From the NCBI RefSeq assembly GCF_000170835.1, contig NZ_ABCP01000017.1, positions 1 to 64,000 on the forward strand: a stretch of 64,000 nt of DNA. The letters run 5' to 3'. Positions 19,608 to 31,098 of this stretch are shown piece after piece. Made by a program: the position numbers and the translations under genes. A model generated the notes under the pieces. It worked only from the letters and a program-made list of their open reading frames with translations, was not told the DNA's origin and ran no database searches. Numbering within the stretch: position 1 is the stretch's first letter; each line of letters starts with the position of its first letter. Source of the stretch: Marinobacter algicola DG893. GTDB taxonomy: Bacteria; Pseudomonadota; Gammaproteobacteria; Pseudomonadales; Oleiphilaceae.

Positions 19608-20468
19608 CTAATTTGGCTCCCGATAACTTTCCAAACGCCGGAGCCATCCCTTTAGCCAGCGCTCCCGCTCGATCGGCGCATCGGCATTCTCGGCCCGCCG
19701 GGTCAATACCTCAGCGGCTGCGCTTCGGAATCGGTCAAGGATGGGCCGATCATCACCTTTCATGGCAAGAAGGACCTGTAACAGGCCCCAACCTTCACCG
19801 TTGTATTGTTCTGTGGCGGACAACCCCTCCCCCTTGAAGTTCACGTAGTCAATGACGGCGTAAACCCCGCCGGACGTGCTGACCAGCTCGTCAAGATGGC
19901 GCTTTACACGTGGTTGTTGAGCGTCAGGAGCTGCCTGTATAACACGTAACAGGGAGCTTCTGGCCCGCTGGACAATAAAGCCGGCCTGGAGGTCCCGGGT
20001 TGCCAGCAGAAACTCCCTCAGTTCGGCAACACGGGAGGAGTCCGCCACCTCGAGAAAAGCGGCTCTGTCAGGCCATGGCGCGTCAAATGGCTCTAACTGC
20101 GCAAGCCAATGGGGCAATGGTGCGTCACGCTTCTCCATGTACCGAATCAACGCGGGAAAGCTTTCTACGAAGCGCCCCTCCACTGCCGACGGATACCAGA
20201 TAAAATGCCCGATACCGAGCGACGGAAAGGCCTCACCTTCGTTCCAGTGCACAAGGCAGACTTTCTTCGCAGAACATTCATTTCGAAAAATCTGCTGCCC
20301 TACCCAGTCGAGTTCAGCCTTACTTAGCGCAATCTCAGGTACGCTTATGTCCTGCACGCTTTTCGATTCAGCCCCCGCCGGCGTGGGATCCATTTCATCG
20401 GAGCACCCTGCCAGGGTAAAAATGATCAGCCATCCGATTACCAGTGATTCATAAACGTTCCGCGACAT
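19608..20468 (-). CDS. Uncharacterised lipoprotein with a lysozyme-like motif
   Basis: I do not recognise a characterised family. From the ATG at 20468 the 286-residue protein has a lipoprotein signal with lipobox LAGC (Cys22), so it should be anchored to a membrane facing the periplasm; Ser23-Asp24 after the Cys might favour inner-membrane retention. Around residues 65-92 are two cysteines and a NEGE...SLGIGHFIWYP stretch, faintly like the Glu and G-x-GH core of lysozyme-type glycosidases, and around 223-234 NGEGWGLLQVL recalls the GLMQ region of transglycosylases. The rest is helical and charged. A peptidoglycan role is speculation. It diverges from the LtaS-like gene across 99 bases. The upstream extension to 20666 would overlap that gene and is unlikely. 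Confidence 0.75.
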   Translation of the reverse strand: MSRNVYESLVIGWLIIFTLAGCSDEMDPTPAGAESKSVQDISVPEIALSKAELDWVGQQIFRNECSAKKVCLVHWNEGEAFPSLGIGHFIWYPSAVEGRFVESFPALIRYMEKRDAPLPHWLAQLEPFDAPWPDRAAFLEVADSSRVAELREFLLATRDLQAGFIVQRARSSLLRVIQAAPDAQQPRVKRHLDELVSTSGGVYAVIDYVNFKGEGLSATEQYNGEGWGLLQVLLAMKGDDRPILDRFRSAAAEVLTRRAENADAPIERERWLKGWLRRLESYREPN

Positions 20469-20567
20469 TGCCAGCCTCCAGCCGGTGGCGATAACCTGTT
20501 TGTTTGGCGCCCGGCCTTTCACGCCAATTCTGACGATCTCAATCGCCGCTCGATACCGGACCACACT

Positions 20568-22436
20568 ATGACATTTTTCTCTGGGCTCATGGCCAGACAT
20601 TTCCGCCAAACACTGGTTTTGGCTTTCTGCTGGCTGGTTGTTGTCAGGGCGAGCTATGTGTTGCAAAGCGGGGTCGTTCCCAATCCTCTGGCGATGATTG
20701 CCGGCGATCTGGCCGGTGCGTTTGTTCTCGCAGTTTTGCTATGCATCACCAGAGGCATTTCCAGGGTTATTCTGGTCGTGGTCCTGGGATGCGCAACGTT
20801 TGTTGCCGGCATGCACCTCACCGTTCACGGAACCCTGTTCCAGCTGTCACTGATCGGCAAGGGCGTTGATCCGACCTTTGTAACCGGCAGCCTGATCAAC
20901 GTTCACGCGCTTTGGTTTCCCGTCTACCTTTCCCTTGCCGGGTTTCTTCATTGGCGGCACCGTCGGCTCGACCCCGAAGCAGTGCCGGCAGGCAGGACCG
21001 GGCAGGTGTTGGTTGCGGTCCTCGTAGCCGCGATCTATGGCGTGTCGTTCCAGAGCCTTACAACGCCCGCAAACAATGTTGTCGCCAGCTTCTTCGCCCA
21101 GATACCAGGGGCGATCATCGGGCCACTCGCCCCGACACTGTCCACGGAAGACGAGGACCTCAACGGGTCTGAAAAGGCCCTGAAAACCCTGCAGACGGCG
21201 AGCTTTTTTCGTCACCAGGTTGCCGCGCCTATCGTGAAGAACCACCCTAATGTGCTGCTGGTCATGATTGAGGGCATGTCAGGCGGCTATTTCCCAAGCC
21301 TGAGCCGCTATCACGGTCTTGACCCAACCGTTACCCTGGCCAGCCTTGAAGAAAACCTGCGCCGTCATGGATTTCGTCTCTACCGGAATTCGCTGAGCAT
21401 GGAACGTCAGACAGATCGCGGCACCTTTGCCATCCTGTGTGGCGCATACCCGGACTTCCGCCGGCAATCACGGAAAATGGTTGATGTGGCTGAGGGGCGC
21501 GTTGTGGTGGACTGCATGCCCAAACACCTGAAAGAACATGGCTACCGTACGGCCTACTGGCAGGCCGCGCCGCTGGATTATATGCAAAAGGGCGAGTTCA
21601 TGCCGCAGGCCGGATTTATCGATGTCACCGGCGCAAAGATCTTCAACGGCCCCGGAGAAGAAGTGGAAGGTTGGGGGCCACCGGATCCGATCTATTTCAA
21701 CAACGTTGCACAGCGGCTAAGACAGCTTGACGCGAAACCTGGCCCCTGGATGGTCACCTTGTTGAACGTGGGCACCCATCACCCGTTCAAAATCGGAAAA
21801 GAGGCGGAACAGCAACCACCGGACGATGAATTGAATGCCGAGGACATTACACCAGAGCCTCAGGAGGCTCGGAAAAAGGCCATGAAAACCATGGAAGATG
21901 CCTTGAATCAGTTTCTTGACGACCTGGCGTCCGACGGCATTCTTGACGACACTCTCGTCATTATCACTTCTGATGAGTCTGGAGGCTTCATTCGCAAAGA
22001 TCATGAATCAATGCCCCTGAACAGCAACGTTGGCGTGCTGGCGATACGTCCTCCGGACAGCGATTCGCTCGAGGACTATGCCAATCGCGACCAGATCGTG
22101 GCGCAAATCGATATTCCGCCCACCATCCTGGACGCAACGGGGCTCGGGACAAAGGCTGGCGACATGATTGGCCGGAGCCTGCTGGTCAAGCAACCAAAAC
22201 AGCAACGCGACCTGCTGTTGGCGGACACCTACACGGGGCTCAAGTACTTCCTTAGGGAGTCTGGGCAACTCCTGAGTTGCAGCGAACTGATGACTGACTG
22301 CACCACCTGGCGCTTTAATCCGGAGCGACTGTTTGGCACGCTTGAAGCGACGAATGCGGAACCTTTCCTGACATTCGATGAACGCACGGCATTGTTCAAC
22401 AGGGCAGCCCTCATGGAGCCTGCAGAGGACCCCTGA
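20568..22436 (+). CDS. LTA-synthase-like membrane sulfatase (phosphoglycerol-transferase family)
   Basis: 622 residues: about four to five TMs in 10-160, then an extracytoplasmic sulfatase/alkaline-phosphatase-fold domain from about 225. The family (LtaS, OpgB, phosphoethanolamine transferases) moves phospho-headgroups from phospholipids using a threonine nucleophile. I see metal-ligand E235 in MIEGMSGG, candidate nucleophile T282 in ERQTDRGT, H404-H405 in GTHHPF, and D469 in TSDESGG. LtaS proteins have Asp-His at the last site; here it is Asp-Glu (E470), which may alter metal binding. A linker rich in Glu and Pro lies at 412-435. Acceptor and product are unknown. The ATG has no clear ribosome site. 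The GDPD gene follows 33 bases downstream, suggesting co-transcription. Confidence 0.85.
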   Translation: MTFFSGLMARHFRQTLVLAFCWLVVVRASYVLQSGVVPNPLAMIAGDLAGAFVLAVLLCITRGISRVILVVVLGCATFVAGMHLTVHGTLFQLSLIGKGVDPTFVTGSLINVHALWFPVYLSLAGFLHWRHRRLDPEAVPAGRTGQVLVAVLVAAIYGVSFQSLTTPANNVVASFFAQIPGAIIGPLAPTLSTEDEDLNGSEKALKTLQTASFFRHQVAAPIVKNHPNVLLVMIEGMSGGYFPSLSRYHGLDPTVTLASLEENLRRHGFRLYRNSLSMERQTDRGTFAILCGAYPDFRRQSRKMVDVAEGRVVVDCMPKHLKEHGYRTAYWQAAPLDYMQKGEFMPQAGFIDVTGAKIFNGPGEEVEGWGPPDPIYFNNVAQRLRQLDAKPGPWMVTLLNVGTHHPFKIGKEAEQQPPDDELNAEDITPEPQEARKKAMKTMEDALNQFLDDLASDGILDDTLVIITSDESGGFIRKDHESMPLNSNVGVLAIRPPDSDSLEDYANRDQIVAQIDIPPTILDATGLGTKAGDMIGRSLLVKQPKQQRDLLLADTYTGLKYFLRESGQLLSCSELMTDCTTWRFNPERLFGTLEATNAEPFLTFDERTALFNRAALMEPAEDP

Positions 22437-22469
22437 GCTTGAAACTTCGACACGGGGACGATTGCCTGA

Positions 22470-24266
22470 ATGAAGATTCTTGCACTGCACACGCTGGCAT
22501 TCCTGCACGTTCATCGCCGGGCGCTGTTGGTCTTTTACCTGTTTTTCACCGGCCTCGTTCTGGCCGCCATTGCACCGCTCTTTTCCAGCGCCCTGGCAGC
22601 GCTTCGGCCGATAACCGGTCACGCTGCCATCAGCACTGGTGGGCTGGTGCAGTTTGTGGTGTCCCCTGGCGGCTTGCTGTGGCTCAGCGCAACGGCGACC
22701 CTGACCGCCTTCCTGGTGATCCTGCAACAAGCGGGCATGACCTGGATTGCCGCCTCCGGCGGAGGCCGCGAATACCGGATAGCCATTGCCACGCTGTGGG
22801 CTCTTGCGCAACGTTTCAAACAACTACTCACCCTCACCCTGCTGCAATTGGGCGGCCATGCACTGATCGCCGTGCCTTTCCTGCTGGCCATAGTGGCGAG
22901 TTACCAGTGGCTGATCTCACCCCACGACATCTACTATCTGAAGCTGGAACGGCCACCCGAAGTCTGGTGGTTCCTGGGCATATCTGGGGTCGCAGCGCTG
23001 GGAATCGCCGTATGTAACGGCTGGCTTTACCTGCGCTGGGCACTGTCAGTTCCCCTGCTCCTGCTGGAGCGCATGGGTGCGCGCGACGCTCTCAGGCAGA
23101 GTAGCCATTATGTTCACGGCCAGCGCCTGCCCGTGATGGGCGCACTCATCGCCGGCCTGGTCGGCCTGGCCCTGACCCCAATTGCGGTTACATGGCTGTT
23201 CCAGGCGGCGGGAGGCGAGATCCTAACAAGCCTGCCTGAGCGGATGGGCGTGCTGATGCCCGTCACCCTGGGCCTGATCGCGCTCTATACACTGTTCACC
23301 CTCACCGCCGCCTTTGCTGGCATAGCGGCCTACAGCATGCTGACATACAGCGTGTATAGGCAGGCAACGGGTCACCACCGTCACAGCACCGCCCAAAACC
23401 TGCCCCGGCGGGCGTCACCATTGGCGTGGTCGGCCGAACTTTTGATCATCATTCTGGCCGCCACGCAGGCCTGGTTTGTCCTGCAATCCTTCGACCACAG
23501 GGACGATGTTTCCATCACTGCCCATCGTGGCAGTGCTTTCAAGGCGCCGGAAAACACCATGAGCGCCATAGAACAGGCCATCGAGGATGGCGCTGACTAC
23601 ATTGAAGTGGATATCCGCATGACCGCGGACGGCGTGCCGGTGCTTTGGCACGATACCGACATGCGACGTGTCTTCGGCCTGAGCGGCAGGATCTCCGATA
23701 TCACCCTGGAACAGGCCCGTGCCCGGGACGCTGGTTCGTGGTTCGGCCCGGCGTTCAGCGATGAGCGGATTGCCACCCTGGAACGGGTCATCGAAACCAC
23801 CAGAGGGCGAGCCCATTTATACCTCGATCTGAAGCCCGCCCCGGAGACGCCCGACCTGACCAGGGAGGTCGTCCATATGCTGCAGCGCATGGACGCCGTG
23901 GAGAACACGGTGATTGCGGCCGCCGAATGGCGAGTCCTGGCGGAAGCGCGACAACTGGAGCCTTCGCTGAAAACCAGCCTGCTGGCACAATTCATCGTTG
24001 GTCCGCTGTGGGAACAAGACTTTGACATACTGGGCCTGCGACAGAACCGTGTCACTCCTGCCACGGTGGCTCGCACCCACCGTGCTGGCAACGAACTCCA
24101 TGTATGGACGGTCAATACGCCGCAGGCGATGTCACGCTTTATCGACATGGGCGTGGACAATATCATTACCGACCGGCCAGCTATGTTGGCGCAACTGCTA
24201 CAACGCCGGCAGGCACTGACCGACGCAGAACTTCTGGTGATCAAGCTCCGGAACTGGCTGCGCTAG
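22470..24266 (+). CDS. Membrane-anchored glycerophosphodiester phosphodiesterase
   Basis: 598 residues in two parts. Residues 1-345 form a multi-TM membrane domain (about seven to eight helices) of the type often fused to GDPDs. Residues 346-575 form a GDPD barrel: catalytic HRG at 352-354, PEN at 360-362, the acidic pair EVD at 379-381 and the second catalytic His in LWHD at 394. It hydrolyses glycerophosphodiesters to glycerol-3-phosphate and an alcohol; the last TM (around 322-340) probably places the enzyme outside the cytoplasm. It lies 33 bases after the LtaS-like gene on the same strand. That pairing suggests recycling or trimming of glycerophosphate groups, which is inference. Confidence 0.92.
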   Translation: MKILALHTLAFLHVHRRALLVFYLFFTGLVLAAIAPLFSSALAALRPITGHAAISTGGLVQFVVSPGGLLWLSATATLTAFLVILQQAGMTWIAASGGGREYRIAIATLWALAQRFKQLLTLTLLQLGGHALIAVPFLLAIVASYQWLISPHDIYYLKLERPPEVWWFLGISGVAALGIAVCNGWLYLRWALSVPLLLLERMGARDALRQSSHYVHGQRLPVMGALIAGLVGLALTPIAVTWLFQAAGGEILTSLPERMGVLMPVTLGLIALYTLFTLTAAFAGIAAYSMLTYSVYRQATGHHRHSTAQNLPRRASPLAWSAELLIIILAATQAWFVLQSFDHRDDVSITAHRGSAFKAPENTMSAIEQAIEDGADYIEVDIRMTADGVPVLWHDTDMRRVFGLSGRISDITLEQARARDAGSWFGPAFSDERIATLERVIETTRGRAHLYLDLKPAPETPDLTREVVHMLQRMDAVENTVIAAAEWRVLAEARQLEPSLKTSLLAQFIVGPLWEQDFDILGLRQNRVTPATVARTHRAGNELHVWTVNTPQAMSRFIDMGVDNIITDRPAMLAQLLQRRQALTDAELLVIKLRNWLR

Positions 24267-24302
24267 TCTCTTGAACGAGCAAACGCGATACGAGACAACA
24301 AC

Positions 24303-25412
24303 CTACTGAAGGCCGGAAAAATAACCGGGCCTGCGGCCAGCAAGCCGGTAGAGAAACGCAAGAAGCCCCCTCAAGAGCGCAATGGCGGGCCAAAGTAACC
24401 AACTTGCCAGATAAAGCAGCGGCACAAGAATCAGCAACCAGCCCACGAGCTGGACCATCATCGGGGAGACACCCAACACATCGGCGACGCCGGCAAAAAA
24501 GTCGTTGATGATGCTGGGGTGGGCGACCACCAGGTAGCCAGCGCCAATGATCAGAGGCCACTTCGCATAGCGGGCACTGCGGAGAATCAAGCGCCCGCTG
24601 CCGGTAATACGGGCAGCCAACGCTGCGGAGCGGGTTGAAAGTCTGGCGCCCTGGGTCGCCTTTGCCGCCGTACGACCGACCCGAAGCACCTTGACTGCGC
24701 TGGCAAACACCAACACATCCACCGATGCCCAGCCTATGTCACTGGCGGAGATATCCTCTCCGGTTCGGTAATCCGCCTCCAGCTGTCGCACGCCGCTAGT
24801 GAAGAACTGGGCAAGCCCTTCTGTAATCCTCTCGGTCTGCACCCACTGGGTTTCGCCATTGGCATCCACCACGAACTGCCCGAGAAAATCGTGACCCTCG
24901 TTGCGGATGAAGTTCACTGCGTACCAGCCCCGCTGTTCGGGCGTCATAGGCTCTGTTTTTTCCGGCTTCTGTTCGCTCGGGTCCTTGCCACGGAGCTCAG
25001 CGATATAGTTCCGGGCGCGTTCATATTGACGGGCAGCCTTGTTCATCCATTCAATGGAGCTGACAGGCTGGCGAAGGAAGTAGTAAATCGGTGGCAGGGC
25101 GCTCTCTCCATAGGTGCGCAACACCTCCTGGAATTCCGGCTCGGACGCATAAAGCGGAAAAATGGCGCGGGCCATGTCAGGGTGTGCCATCAACGCTGCC
25201 TGGGCCTTGAGGAGCAGAAGAGGATCGCCCCCCAGGTCCAGAATGGCGGCCTGGACGTCAACAGGCTCATCCCCGATATCCTCAAAACCTGGCAATGCCT
25301 CCCGGGCCTGAATCGAAATCAGTTTCTGCTCAATGGGTACCGGATCGGAGGCGACACTGGCGATTGCGGCAACCAGCAGCGCGATACCCAGAATCACCAT
25401 GGCCTTCTTCAA
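24303..25412 (-). CDS. Uncharacterised membrane protein
   Basis: I do not recognise the family. 369 residues: an N-terminal hydrophobic segment (5-21), likely a signal or anchor; a soluble region to about 275, acidic at first, with a Lys/Glu/Pro-rich patch (143-158); a basic Ala/Arg-rich stretch at 243-283; and two to three TMs (about 285-298, 317-358) near the C-terminus. Codon use looks like that of its neighbours. It converges on the GDPD gene (stops 36 bases apart) and is preceded by emrE on the same strand 15 bases away, so the two may be co-transcribed. Confidence 0.75.
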   Translation of the reverse strand: MKKAMVILGIALLVAAIASVASDPVPIEQKLISIQAREALPGFEDIGDEPVDVQAAILDLGGDPLLLLKAQAALMAHPDMARAIFPLYASEPEFQEVLRTYGESALPPIYYFLRQPVSSIEWMNKAARQYERARNYIAELRGKDPSEQKPEKTEPMTPEQRGWYAVNFIRNEGHDFLGQFVVDANGETQWVQTERITEGLAQFFTSGVRQLEADYRTGEDISASDIGWASVDVLVFASAVKVLRVGRTAAKATQGARLSTRSAALAARITGSGRLILRSARYAKWPLIIGAGYLVVAHPSIINDFFAGVADVLGVSPMMVQLVGWLLILVPLLYLASWLLWPAIALLRGLLAFLYRLAGRRPGYFSGLQ

Positions 25413-25427
25413 ACGTCCACCTCGGGC

Positions 25428-25766
25428 TCAATGCGTTGATCCTATACTGCCTGAGAATACGTTGATTACCATAACGCCGGCAACGATGAGGCCGATGCCG
25501 AGGATGGCGGGAAGGTCCAGCGTCTGCCCGAAAAACAGATAACCCGCCAGCGCAATCAAGGCCACACCAGCGCCGGCCCACACCGCATAGGCCACTCCCA
25601 CTGGCAAGGTTTTCAGGGTCAACGCCAGGAAGTAGAACGCCAGGATGTAGGACACCACAACAACCAGCGACGGCCCCAGGCGGGTGAAGCCCTCAGAACT
25701 CTTTAAAAAGGAGGTTCCGATAACCTCCGCAACGATAGCCACCGACAAATATACCCACTGAATCAT
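25428..25766 (-). CDS. emrE: Small multidrug resistance efflux protein, EmrE type
   Basis: A 112-residue, four-TM proton/drug antiporter that exports quaternary cations as an antiparallel dimer. The essential Glu is at residue 14 in AIVAEVIGTS, followed by SEGFTRL, YAVWAGAG and FGQTLDLPAILG, closely resembling EmrE. The start at 25766 gives the family N-terminus; the frame is open 18 codons further upstream, but that would run toward the fpr terminator. It is separated from fpr by that terminator, so it should have its own promoter or a low level of read-through. Confidence 0.93.
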   Translation of the reverse strand: MIQWVYLSVAIVAEVIGTSFLKSSEGFTRLGPSLVVVVSYILAFYFLALTLKTLPVGVAYAVWAGAGVALIALAGYLFFGQTLDLPAILGIGLIVAGVMVINVFSGSIGSTH

Positions 25767-28309: not shown

Positions 28310-28503
28310 TGTTTACAGCAGGTCGGGTTCTCGGGCACGGCAGTATACCGCAACAAACCACAATATCCGACCACAGTCCAACTTAACTTTATAAGGGGTT
28401 TCCTATAGAATGCAGCGCCAACTTAGCGCCTTTTCGCCATAAAACTCCCGCCAGGCAACGACGCCCACGGCGCGGGACATTCCAACTGATGAGGGTCCAT
28501 ATC

Positions 28504-31098
28504 GTGTTAGAAGCCTATCGTGAACACGTTGCAGAACGCGAGGCTCTGGGCATTCCCCCGAAGCCTCTGAACGCTGAGCAGACCGCCGCTCTGGTCGATC
28601 TCCTTAAAAACCCGCCGGCCGGCGAAGAAGAGACGCTGGTCTATTTGCTTGAAAACCGCGTTCCGCCGGGTGTGGACGAAGCCGCTTATGTAAAAGCTGC
28701 TTTCCTGACCGCCATTGTTAAGGGTGAAGCAACGTCTCCCCTGCTGGACAAGCCGAAGGCCGTTGATCTGCTGGGCATGATGCAGGGTGGCTATAACATC
28801 GCGACCCTGGTCGACCTGCTGGACGATTCTGAACTGGCCGAACAGGCCGGCGAGAAGCTCAAGCGCACCCTGCTGATGTTCGATGCCTTCAACGACGTGA
28901 AGGAAAAGATGGACGCAGGCAACGCCGTTGCCAAGGCCGTCATCGAATCCTGGGCCAACGCCGAATGGTTCACCAAAAGGAAGAAGGTACCGGAAAGCAC
29001 CAAAATGGTGGTATTCAAGGTGACCGGTGAAACCAACACCGACGATCTTTCTCCGGCTCCAGATGCCTGGTCCCGCCCGGACATCCCGCTGCACGCCCGC
29101 GCCGCCTACAAAATGGAGCGTGATGGCCTGAAGCCGGAAGAACCCGGCGTTACCGGCCCGATGAGCCAGATCGACGACATCAAGTCCAAAGGCCTGCCCG
29201 TTGCCTTCGTTGGTGACGTGGTCGGCACCGGCTCCTCACGCAAGTCTGCCACCAACTCTGTGCTTTGGTTCTTCGGTGAAGACGTTCCGGGTGTGCCGAA
29301 CAAGCGCGCCGGCGGCGTGTGCATTGGCAACAAGGTTGCTCCGATCTTCTTCAATACCATGGAAGATGCTGGCGCTCTGGTTTTCGAGGCCCCGGTTGAC
29401 GATCTGAACATGGGCGACGTTATCGACATTCGCCCCTACGAAGGCAAAATCCTGAACGAAGCCGGCGAAACCATCTCTGAGTTTGGCTTCAAGTCCGACG
29501 TTATCCTGGACGAAGTTCAGGCCGGCGGTCGTATTCCGCTGATCATTGGCCGTGGCCTGACCGCCAAGGCCCGCACAGCACTGGGCATGGGCGCCACTGA
29601 CATCTTCCGTTTGCCGAATGACCCGGAAGAAGGCACCAAGGGCTTCACCCTGGGCCAGAAGATGGTCGGCAAGGCCTGCGGCCTGGAAGAAGGTAAAGGC
29701 GTTCGCCCCGGCACCTACTGCGAGCCACACATGACCACTGTTGGCTCCCAGGATACTACTGGTCCGATGACCCGTGACGAGCTGAAAGACCTGGCGTGCC
29801 TGGGCTTCCAGGCTGATCTGGTGATGCAGTCCTTCTGTCACACCGCGGCTTATCCGAAGCCGGTCGACGTGGAAATGCAGCACACCATGCCGGACTTCAT
29901 CCGCACCCGCGGTGGCGTATCCCTGCGCCCGGGCGATGGCATCATCCACTCCTGGCTGAACCGTATGCTGTTGCCGGACACGGTCGGCACCGGTGGCGAT
30001 TCCCACACCCGCTTCCCGATGGGCATCTCCTTCCCGGCCGGTTCCGGCCTGGTGGCGTTTGCTGCAGCGACTGGCGTTATGCCCCTGGATATGCCGGAAT
30101 CCGTTCTGGTTCGCTTCAAGGGCGAGATGCAGCCGGGCATCACGCTGCGCGATCTGGTACATGCGATCCCGCTGTACGGCATCAAGCAAGGCATGTTGAC
30201 CGTTGAGAAGAAGGGCAAGATCAACGAGTTCTCCGGTCGCATCCTGGAAATCGAAGGTCTTGAGCACCTGACCGTTGAGCAGGCGTTCGAGCTGTCTGAC
30301 GCTTCTGCTGAGCGCTCCGCAGCCGGTTGTACGATCAACCTGTCTGAAGAGTCCGTGGCTGAGTACCTGCGTTCCAACATCACCATGCTGCGCTGGATGA
30401 TCGCCGAAGGTTATGGCGACCCGCGTACCCTGGAGCGTCGCGCCCAGCAGATGGAAGAGTGGATTGCCGATCCCAAACTGATGCGTGCCGACAAGGACGC
30501 CGAGTACTCTCATGTTGTGGAAATCGATCTGGCTGACATCAAGGAGCCGATCGTATGCTGCCCGAACGACCCGGACGATGCCAAGTTCCTGTCTGAGGTT
30601 GCTGGCGACAAGGTCGACGAAGTGTTCATCGGTTCCTGCATGACCAACATCGGCCACTTCCGCGCTGCGGGCAAGCTGCTGGAGATGAACAAGGAGCCGC
30701 TGAAGACCCGCCTGTGGATGTCTCCGCCTACCAAGATGGACCAGGCGCAGCTGATGGAAGAGGGCTACTTCAACACCTACGGCACCGCCGGGGTTCGCAC
30801 CGAAATGCCGGGCTGCTCCCTGTGCATGGGTAACCAGGCACGCGTAAACGCCAAGTCTACAGTGCTGTCCACATCCACCCGTAACTTCCCCAACCGTCTG
30901 GGCGATGGTGCCAATGTGTACCTGACCTCCGCGGAACTGGCAGCGGTTGGTGCGGTACTGGGCAAACTCCCGTCTCCGGCGGAGTACATGGAGTACGCCA
31001 AGGACCTGAACAGCATGTCGAAAGAGATCTACAAGTATCTCAACTTCGACCAGATGGAGAACTACACCAAGAAGGCGTCTGAAGCGAACGTTGCTTAA
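28504..31098 (+). CDS. acnB: Aconitate hydratase B
   Basis: Iron-sulfur TCA-cycle enzyme isomerising citrate and isocitrate; the B form can bind mRNA when its cluster is lost. From the GTG at 28504 the protein has 864 residues, almost the E. coli length, and starts VLEAYREHVAER like the family. GAGGG lies eight bases upstream. The ATG at 28489 overlaps that ribosome site and is unlikely to be used. Cluster cysteines are in GSCMTNIGH and PGCSLCMGN near the C-terminus. A terminator follows the stop. Confidence 0.97.
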   Translation: MLEAYREHVAEREALGIPPKPLNAEQTAALVDLLKNPPAGEEETLVYLLENRVPPGVDEAAYVKAAFLTAIVKGEATSPLLDKPKAVDLLGMMQGGYNIATLVDLLDDSELAEQAGEKLKRTLLMFDAFNDVKEKMDAGNAVAKAVIESWANAEWFTKRKKVPESTKMVVFKVTGETNTDDLSPAPDAWSRPDIPLHARAAYKMERDGLKPEEPGVTGPMSQIDDIKSKGLPVAFVGDVVGTGSSRKSATNSVLWFFGEDVPGVPNKRAGGVCIGNKVAPIFFNTMEDAGALVFEAPVDDLNMGDVIDIRPYEGKILNEAGETISEFGFKSDVILDEVQAGGRIPLIIGRGLTAKARTALGMGATDIFRLPNDPEEGTKGFTLGQKMVGKACGLEEGKGVRPGTYCEPHMTTVGSQDTTGPMTRDELKDLACLGFQADLVMQSFCHTAAYPKPVDVEMQHTMPDFIRTRGGVSLRPGDGIIHSWLNRMLLPDTVGTGGDSHTRFPMGISFPAGSGLVAFAAATGVMPLDMPESVLVRFKGEMQPGITLRDLVHAIPLYGIKQGMLTVEKKGKINEFSGRILEIEGLEHLTVEQAFELSDASAERSAAGCTINLSEESVAEYLRSNITMLRWMIAEGYGDPRTLERRAQQMEEWIADPKLMRADKDAEYSHVVEIDLADIKEPIVCCPNDPDDAKFLSEVAGDKVDEVFIGSCMTNIGHFRAAGKLLEMNKEPLKTRLWMSPPTKMDQAQLMEEGYFNTYGTAGVRTEMPGCSLCMGNQARVNAKSTVLSTSTRNFPNRLGDGANVYLTSAELAAVGAVLGKLPSPAEYMEYAKDLNSMSKEIYKYLNFDQMENYTKKASEANVA

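Follow-up and report, generated by a model that had tools for sequence, protein, structure and literature searches.

Within the 64,000-nucleotide stretch of Marinobacter algicola DG893 analysed here (contig NZ_ABCP01000017.1, positions 1 to 64,000; hereafter the window), an LtaS-like gene of the LtaS/OpgB superfamily is followed on the same strand by a gene for a membrane-bound glycerophosphodiester phosphodiesterase (GDPD). Our comparison of related genomes reveals that the two genes constitute a real, conserved and co-inherited module in an otherwise ordinary-looking neighbourhood. The locus is laid out as follows.

19608-20468, minus strand: lipoprotein; the ATG at 20468 was taken as start, and the open reading frame could begin further upstream
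20469-20567, no strand: divergent intergenic stretch of 99 bases between the lipoprotein and LtaS-like genes, unchanged in length in eight aligned genomes
20568-22436, plus strand: LtaS/OpgB-superfamily enzyme, 622 aa, assigned from PF00884, solved relatives, conserved residues and hydropathy
22437-22469, plus strand: intergenic gap of 33 bases between the LtaS-like and GDPD genes, ranging from +48 to -4 nt in 17/17 genomes measured
22470-24266, plus strand: membrane GDPD, 598 aa, assigned from PF03009 and PF10110, solved GDPDs, conserved residues and the alternation of lysine plus arginine (K+R) between loops
24303-25412, minus strand: membrane protein of no Pfam family; a neighbour outside the module, in 8 of 40 stretches
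25428-25766, minus strand: EmrE-like transporter of the SMR family (PF00893); a neighbour outside the module, in 4 of 40 stretches

The five genes lie where an earlier note on this DNA had put them, and the 99- and 33-base gaps that it gave are exact. The LtaS-like protein matches the Pfam family Sulfatase (PF00884; E 2.3e-24, 86.7 bits against a cut-off of 25), and the GDPD protein matches both PF03009 (E 4.4e-43, 148.6 bits, cut-off 23.6) and GPDPase_memb PF10110 (E 4.5e-11, 42.5 bits, cut-off 29.6). Scanning positions 20300-24500 for a promoter consensus returned one promoter-like site, against 1.4 in shuffled sequences, and none inside the 99-base gap. A matching locus is present in named Marinobacter records, including M. 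salarius R9SW1 at 94% identity. A literature search, with most subscription literature outside its reach, retrieved no paper on the Marinobacter LtaS-like enzyme or on an LtaS-like/GDPD pair.

At E <= 1e-20 the LtaS-like gene was found in 19 of 37 Marinobacter genomes and in none of 21 genomes from other families of the order in the same draw. A near-full-length membrane GDPD occurs in 18 of the 37, every one of which also carries the LtaS-like gene. None of the 18 Marinobacter genomes without the LtaS-like gene has a membrane GDPD, their only matches being the common short GDPD at 26-30% identity. With a GDPD remnant in the remaining carrier, G006, counted as presence, the two genes are concordant in 37/37 genomes (19 with, 18 without). 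Such perfect agreement has a chance probability of 5.7e-11 when genomes are treated as independent, and relatedness and gene adjacency make the real evidence weaker than this figure. On a Lon protease tree in which the rows for G036 and G033 are partial, presence of the pair requires at least five changes within the genus (six when three outgroup rows are included), common to both genes; the two genes have therefore been acquired or lost together on several occasions. The two genes share a strand in 17/17 genomes measured, at spacings from +48 nt to a 4 nt overlap, and they touch or overlap in several of the more divergent genomes. Protein distances of the LtaS-like enzyme and the GDPD correlate with each other (r = 0.960) more closely than those of either with Lon (0.867 and 0.871), and ten pairwise comparisons gave ratios of nonsynonymous to synonymous substitution (dN/dS) of 0.079-0.160 for the two genes.

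The module was also sought outside the genus. A draw of 390 genomes from the order yielded 17 with an LtaS-like match at E <= 1e-35. Seven of these are Marinobacter and seven belong to family f20; of the other three, G938, from another family, carries a close ortholog, and G1002 and G881 carry distant relatives. G938 has its GDPD 36 nt downstream of the LtaS-like gene, and the proteins are 56-60% identical to those of Marinobacter; none of the lipoprotein, fpr, lysR and acnB was matched in the inspected part (3.5-16.5 kb) of its 19.5-kb locus. Two further Marinobacter genomes, G998 and G1116, also have the adjacent pair, so that an intact GDPD stands behind an ortholog of the LtaS-like gene in 21 of 22 genomes overall. 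Of the three genes whose co-occurrence the earlier note had suggested counting across relatives, the LtaS-like gene and the GDPD stay together both in Marinobacter and in G938. Searched with PF10110, 398 genomes from the phylum gave 28 with a match. The LtaS-like protein had no match in phages, and five plasmid records were hit, none at 80% coverage.

The LtaS-like protein consists of an N-terminal membrane part of five likely helices and a predicted periplasmic Sulfatase-type domain. The hydropathy scan returned five segments and a sixth that is borderline (1.51 against a threshold of 1.5); LtaS has five helices, and five were therefore chosen here. VP1736, LtaP and LtaS are the nearest solved relatives, of which the Gram-positive lipoteichoic acid synthase LtaS and primase LtaP are the best characterised (E 5.6e-11 to 2.2e-4); we see no ground for supposing a lipoteichoic acid in Marinobacter. 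Residues E235, T282, H404, H405, D469 and E470 are invariant in 18/18 Marinobacter rows. In LtaS the metal site is formed by Glu255, Thr300, Asp475 and His476 (PMC7576196). The Glu, Thr and Asp have counterparts in all 18 rows, whereas the position of His476 is taken by Glu470, D469-E470 lying opposite the Asp-His of LtaS, and E235 and T282 opposite the Glu and Thr of OpgB. That YejM has Arg451 at the place of His476 (PMC7576196) indicates that this position varies between branches of the superfamily, and Glu470 may well be a metal ligand. In the superfamily alignment Asp-Glu is found in 10/10 Marinobacter sequences and 10/10 distant relatives; outside it, five further members and a Pseudomonas aeruginosa plasmid copy have Asp-Glu too. 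The 30 other members aligned have Asp-His (20, OpgB included), Asp-Asn (9) or Gly-Arg (LapC); one Asp-His row, L246, is doubtful (likely a wrong reading frame, poorly aligned) and can be dropped without effect. As judged from these alignments, the transferase belongs to a branch that has Asp-Glu where LtaS and OpgB have Asp-His. It does not reach the curated models for OpgB (NF009027 and NF003000; 44.7 bits against 572 and 16.2 against 574), LtaS (NF053595; 47.2 against 970) or LapC/YejM (NF038282; 12.9 against 825).

OpgB (MdoB), the phosphoglycerol transferase I of Escherichia coli, likewise combines membrane helices with a periplasmic alkaline-phosphatase-type domain. Its Glu, Thr and Asp positions align with those of the LtaS-like protein and a T-H-H motif is common to both, but OpgB reads SDH where Marinobacter reads SDE, and it scores only 43.2 bits with the hidden Markov model (HMM) of the Marinobacter family, against 988-1134 bits for the Marinobacter rows. 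We know of no GDPD partner for OpgB. Far relatives of the Pseudomonadaceae type, among them the P. aeruginosa plasmid copy, share Asp-Glu with Marinobacter, although the proteins are longer and no GDPD lies beside them in the stretches compared. The plasmid copy itself (L266:4332-6656) is annotated as a sulfatase-like hydrolase/transferase and is located about 2.9 kb behind tpbB/yfiR, genes of cyclic di-GMP (c-di-GMP) control.

In the second protein of the module, the GDPD domain is fused behind a membrane domain of seven segments, as determined from hydropathy. The K+R counts of successive loops are 3, 1, 4, 2, 5, 1 and 4; loops 0, 2, 4 and 6 (3, 4, 5, 4) are thus richer than loops 1, 3 and 5 (1, 2, 1), which predicts an N-in protein with its GDPD domain on the periplasmic side. 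HRG352-354, E379, D381, H394 and K455 are invariant in 18/18 GDPD rows, and we take HRG, E379, D381 and H394 to be the catalytic residues. These are also common to the membrane-domain GDPDs of PF10110 and to LpgD of Staphylococcus aureus, which has a single N-terminal helix (PMC10404611) as opposed to the seven-segment domain in Marinobacter. The curated LpgD model NF053857 is not reached (GDPD domain 56.3 bits, E 3e-15, cut-off 450).

We tentatively favour a two-gene operon whose products turn over phosphoglycerol groups on the periplasmic side of the inner membrane, a proposal that we rate as somewhat short of an even chance. The LtaS-like enzyme would take sn-glycerol-1-phosphate from phosphatidylglycerol via Thr282, with Glu235, Asp469 and probably Glu470 holding a metal. 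It would hand this group on to an acceptor in the envelope that is not a periplasmic glucan, or not only one (an O-chain, exopolysaccharide or glycolipid), leaving diacylglycerol. The membrane-bound GDPD would cleave glycerophosphodiesters on the same face, either stripping the groups or recycling by-products, and the pair would thereby set the negative charge of the envelope. We infer the donor, the transfer, the acceptor and the periplasmic side, together with a role in salt adaptation. The earlier note had likewise suggested that the pair decorates and strips a periplasmic glycan or lipid. Of this, transfer and periplasmic cleavage remain plausible, the conserved residues and crude topology being compatible with a periplasmic phosphoglycerol transferase plus a periplasmic GDPD; a periplasmic glucan as the only acceptor is not upheld, since 3 of 19 carriers have neither opgG nor opgH. 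Two observations on neighbouring genes also speak for the proposal. First, a marine alphaproteobacterium has a full-length membrane GDPD (27.5% identity) behind ABC-transporter genes, one of them named ugpA. Second, an MscK-type large mechanosensitive channel gene comes directly after the GDPD, reading in the same direction, in 7 of the 18 genomes with an intact GDPD and also in G1116 (L092, L093, L094, L095, L097, L098, L107 and L278), a weak physiological hint. We do not claim the channel as a third member of the module, as it also lies beside the lipoprotein gene in the pair-less L112, L120 and L122.

A number of points weigh against this proposal. At the level of the proteins, the sixth hydropathy segment of the LtaS-like enzyme, taken at face value, would place the catalytic domain inside; the one metal-site position that differs from LtaS and OpgB means that the chemistry may differ as well; and structure predictions for the two proteins, each from five close sequences, were unusable (mean predicted local distance difference test, pLDDT, of 35.4 and 43.9). 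At the level of the genomes, G006 has an intact LtaS-like gene with only a GDPD remnant (residues 71-122) directly behind it, adjacency by itself eases joint loss of the two genes, and the three carriers without opgG and opgH (G005, G013 and G031) form one clade on the Lon tree and hence one evolutionary instance. Unlike the Marinobacter GDPD, the full-length relatives in six genomes of family f24 (HMM E 2.9e-159 to 7.7e-185) have no adjoining LtaS-like gene, and these genomes are not among the 13 matches of an LtaS-like search in which three of the six, G421, G497 and G709, are listed as searched without a match. Because far relatives of the transferase, for their part, have no membrane GDPD nearby in the stretches compared, neither protein needs the other in general. 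Five of the six f24 GDPDs (L185, L186, L188, L189 and L190) have an acnB match close by, and so does the GDPD of Marinobacter (28489-31098 of the window), which suggests an old shared locus of the membrane GDPD. The occurrence of the f24 GDPDs without a transferase indicates that the GDPD is probably the older gene at this acnB-side locus, with a substrate of its own, contrary to a strict decorate-and-strip pair.

A second explanation is lipid housekeeping with no polymer involved, which we judge unlikely but the strongest of the alternatives. Here the LtaS-like enzyme would free the phosphatidylglycerol head group to water or a small acceptor, in the manner of a phospholipase C, and the GDPD would hydrolyse lysophosphatidylglycerol or glycerophosphoglycerol, the yield being diacylglycerol and glycerol 3-phosphate for recycling. 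The sub-threshold match of the GDPD domain to the LpgD model, a lysophosphatidylglycerol phospholipase D of S. aureus (function from PMC10404611), fits this explanation, as do the solitary f24 GDPDs and a GDPD beside sugar/glycerol-phosphate-type transporter genes on a Paracoccaceae plasmid. However, those relatives in the LtaS/OpgB group that have an established function are transferases, and the joint keeping and loss of a simple hydrolase and a GDPD would be left unexplained.

The phosphoglycerol groups could alternatively be placed on osmoregulated periplasmic glucans by an OpgB-like transferase and stripped from them by the GDPD. In its favour, OpgB of E. coli, which is of the same general design, adds phosphoglycerol to glucans (PMC3818809), opgG occurs in 30 of the 37 genomes, including 16 of the 19 with the pair, and in 7 of 19 carriers no PF00884 protein other than the transferase was found at E <= 1e-6. 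The genes opgG and opgH go together, 30 Marinobacter genomes having both and seven having neither, and three of the latter, G005, G013 and G031 (99-100% complete), carry the pair with motifs intact. The dN/dS values in these three (0.079-0.108 for the transferase, 0.118-0.160 for the GDPD) reveal that the pair is under purifying selection in this clade, so that periplasmic glucans are not needed, cannot be the sole acceptor and are excluded there as the only function. Moreover, opgG is no commoner with the pair (16/19) than without it (14/18), and the scores far under the curated OpgB models also speak against an OpgB-like role; we regard it as quite unlikely. Separately, opgH of G036 has two in-frame stop codons and its opgG is split, reflecting decay or sequencing error. 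Least probable, and in our view very doubtful, is that the two genes are neighbours by descent alone, a cassette held in place through linkage rather than a joint function. The interval between fpr and the lipoprotein gene does vary in content across genomes, and far relatives of each gene stand alone; against this, the genes overlap or nearly so in the more divergent genomes, and the pair persists where its position and neighbours have changed, both inside the genus and in another family.

Under the favoured proposal of a phosphoglycerol-turnover operon, the general kind of system is a known one; its unusual features are that the transferase belongs to an Asp-Glu subfamily, that it is coupled with a membrane GDPD and that glucans are not required. 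LtaS, OpgB, EptA and MCR are head-group transferases of one superfamily, controlling envelope charge. The earlier note had called such a modification not standard for Gram-negative bacteria, which is only partly right, given that OpgB decorates glucans (PMC3818809) and some Gram-negative O-antigens or O-chains carry phosphoglycerol (PMC3210612). If the proposal is true, the pairing of an Asp-Glu subfamily with a periplasmic diesterase, retained even where glucan genes are missing, would indicate a Gram-negative acceptor not yet described, and Marinobacter, with 19 genomes having the pair and 18 lacking it, is a genus in which to seek that acceptor by comparing natural strains. The Pseudomonadaceae relatives widen the question beyond Marinobacter. 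LsfS of Stutzerimonas stutzeri, also an LTA-synthase-family sulfatase, is likened here by family description and not by sequence; when lsfS was disrupted, c-di-GMP rose and biofilm on glass became thicker, and a connection with the salt response was drawn. The authors call its role unclear and place glucan-gene homologues elsewhere in that genome (PMC12125118). By analogy, this phenotype may serve as a weak physiological hint for the pair. A broader reading, in which the pair is a dedicated phosphoglycerol charge-tuning cycle of halophilic Gram-negatives with a non-glucan acceptor, and the transferase a new Asp-Glu head-group class extending from Marinobacter to the Pseudomonadaceae, in which it may tie the state of the envelope to c-di-GMP and salt, is a good deal more speculative, and we doubt it.

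The neighbours were compared in 40 stretches, dropping matches under 33% identity except for MscK and the lipoprotein. The lipoprotein, which has its lipobox LAGC at residues 19-22 as read off the sequence, had been put forward as a partner of the pair. It is rejected as such, being a core-genome gene found in 37/37 Marinobacter genomes, the 18 without the pair included, and having no match seen near the G938 pair. In many genomes it adjoins the pair in one of two orientations, divergent from the LtaS-like gene or, in G030 and G033, convergent with the GDPD; in G034 it is about 9 kb away and in G006 and G027 on another contig. In G018 (L099:11123-13573) and G035 (L100:11250-13583) the lipoprotein domain forms the C-terminal part of a fusion with a glucose/sorbosone dehydrogenase domain (PF07995, E 3.2e-122 and 2.5e-118), and a separate dehydrogenase gene is near the lipoprotein in three more genomes, which points to another partner for it. 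Neither the lipoprotein nor the membrane protein at 24303-25412 matched a Pfam family above cut-off, and in PHROGs the former had no match and the latter only one at E 0.26. Against solved structures the lipoprotein profile gave a best E of 4.2e-4 (a repeat-design protein, 46 positions, no stretch passing alone), followed by 0.4 and above, which we take as noise. The membrane protein and the SMR pump (PF00893, E 2.1e-32), which the earlier note had listed after the pair, do not follow it from genome to genome and were rejected as module members.

In L025, a Marinobacter sp. metagenome-assembled genome, identity to the window is 100% for the LtaS-like gene and for the SMR and fpr genes, 81% for the GDPD and 85% for the membrane protein, a mosaic attributable either to recombination or to chimeric assembly. 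In the close relatives G036 and G003, about 3.4 kb of extra DNA (L024:11700-15147), absent at 24267-24302 of the window, separates the GDPD from the membrane protein and encodes a STAND-type ATPase with a DNA-binding domain, a DUF1326-like protein and a PpoB2 copper-chaperone-type protein.

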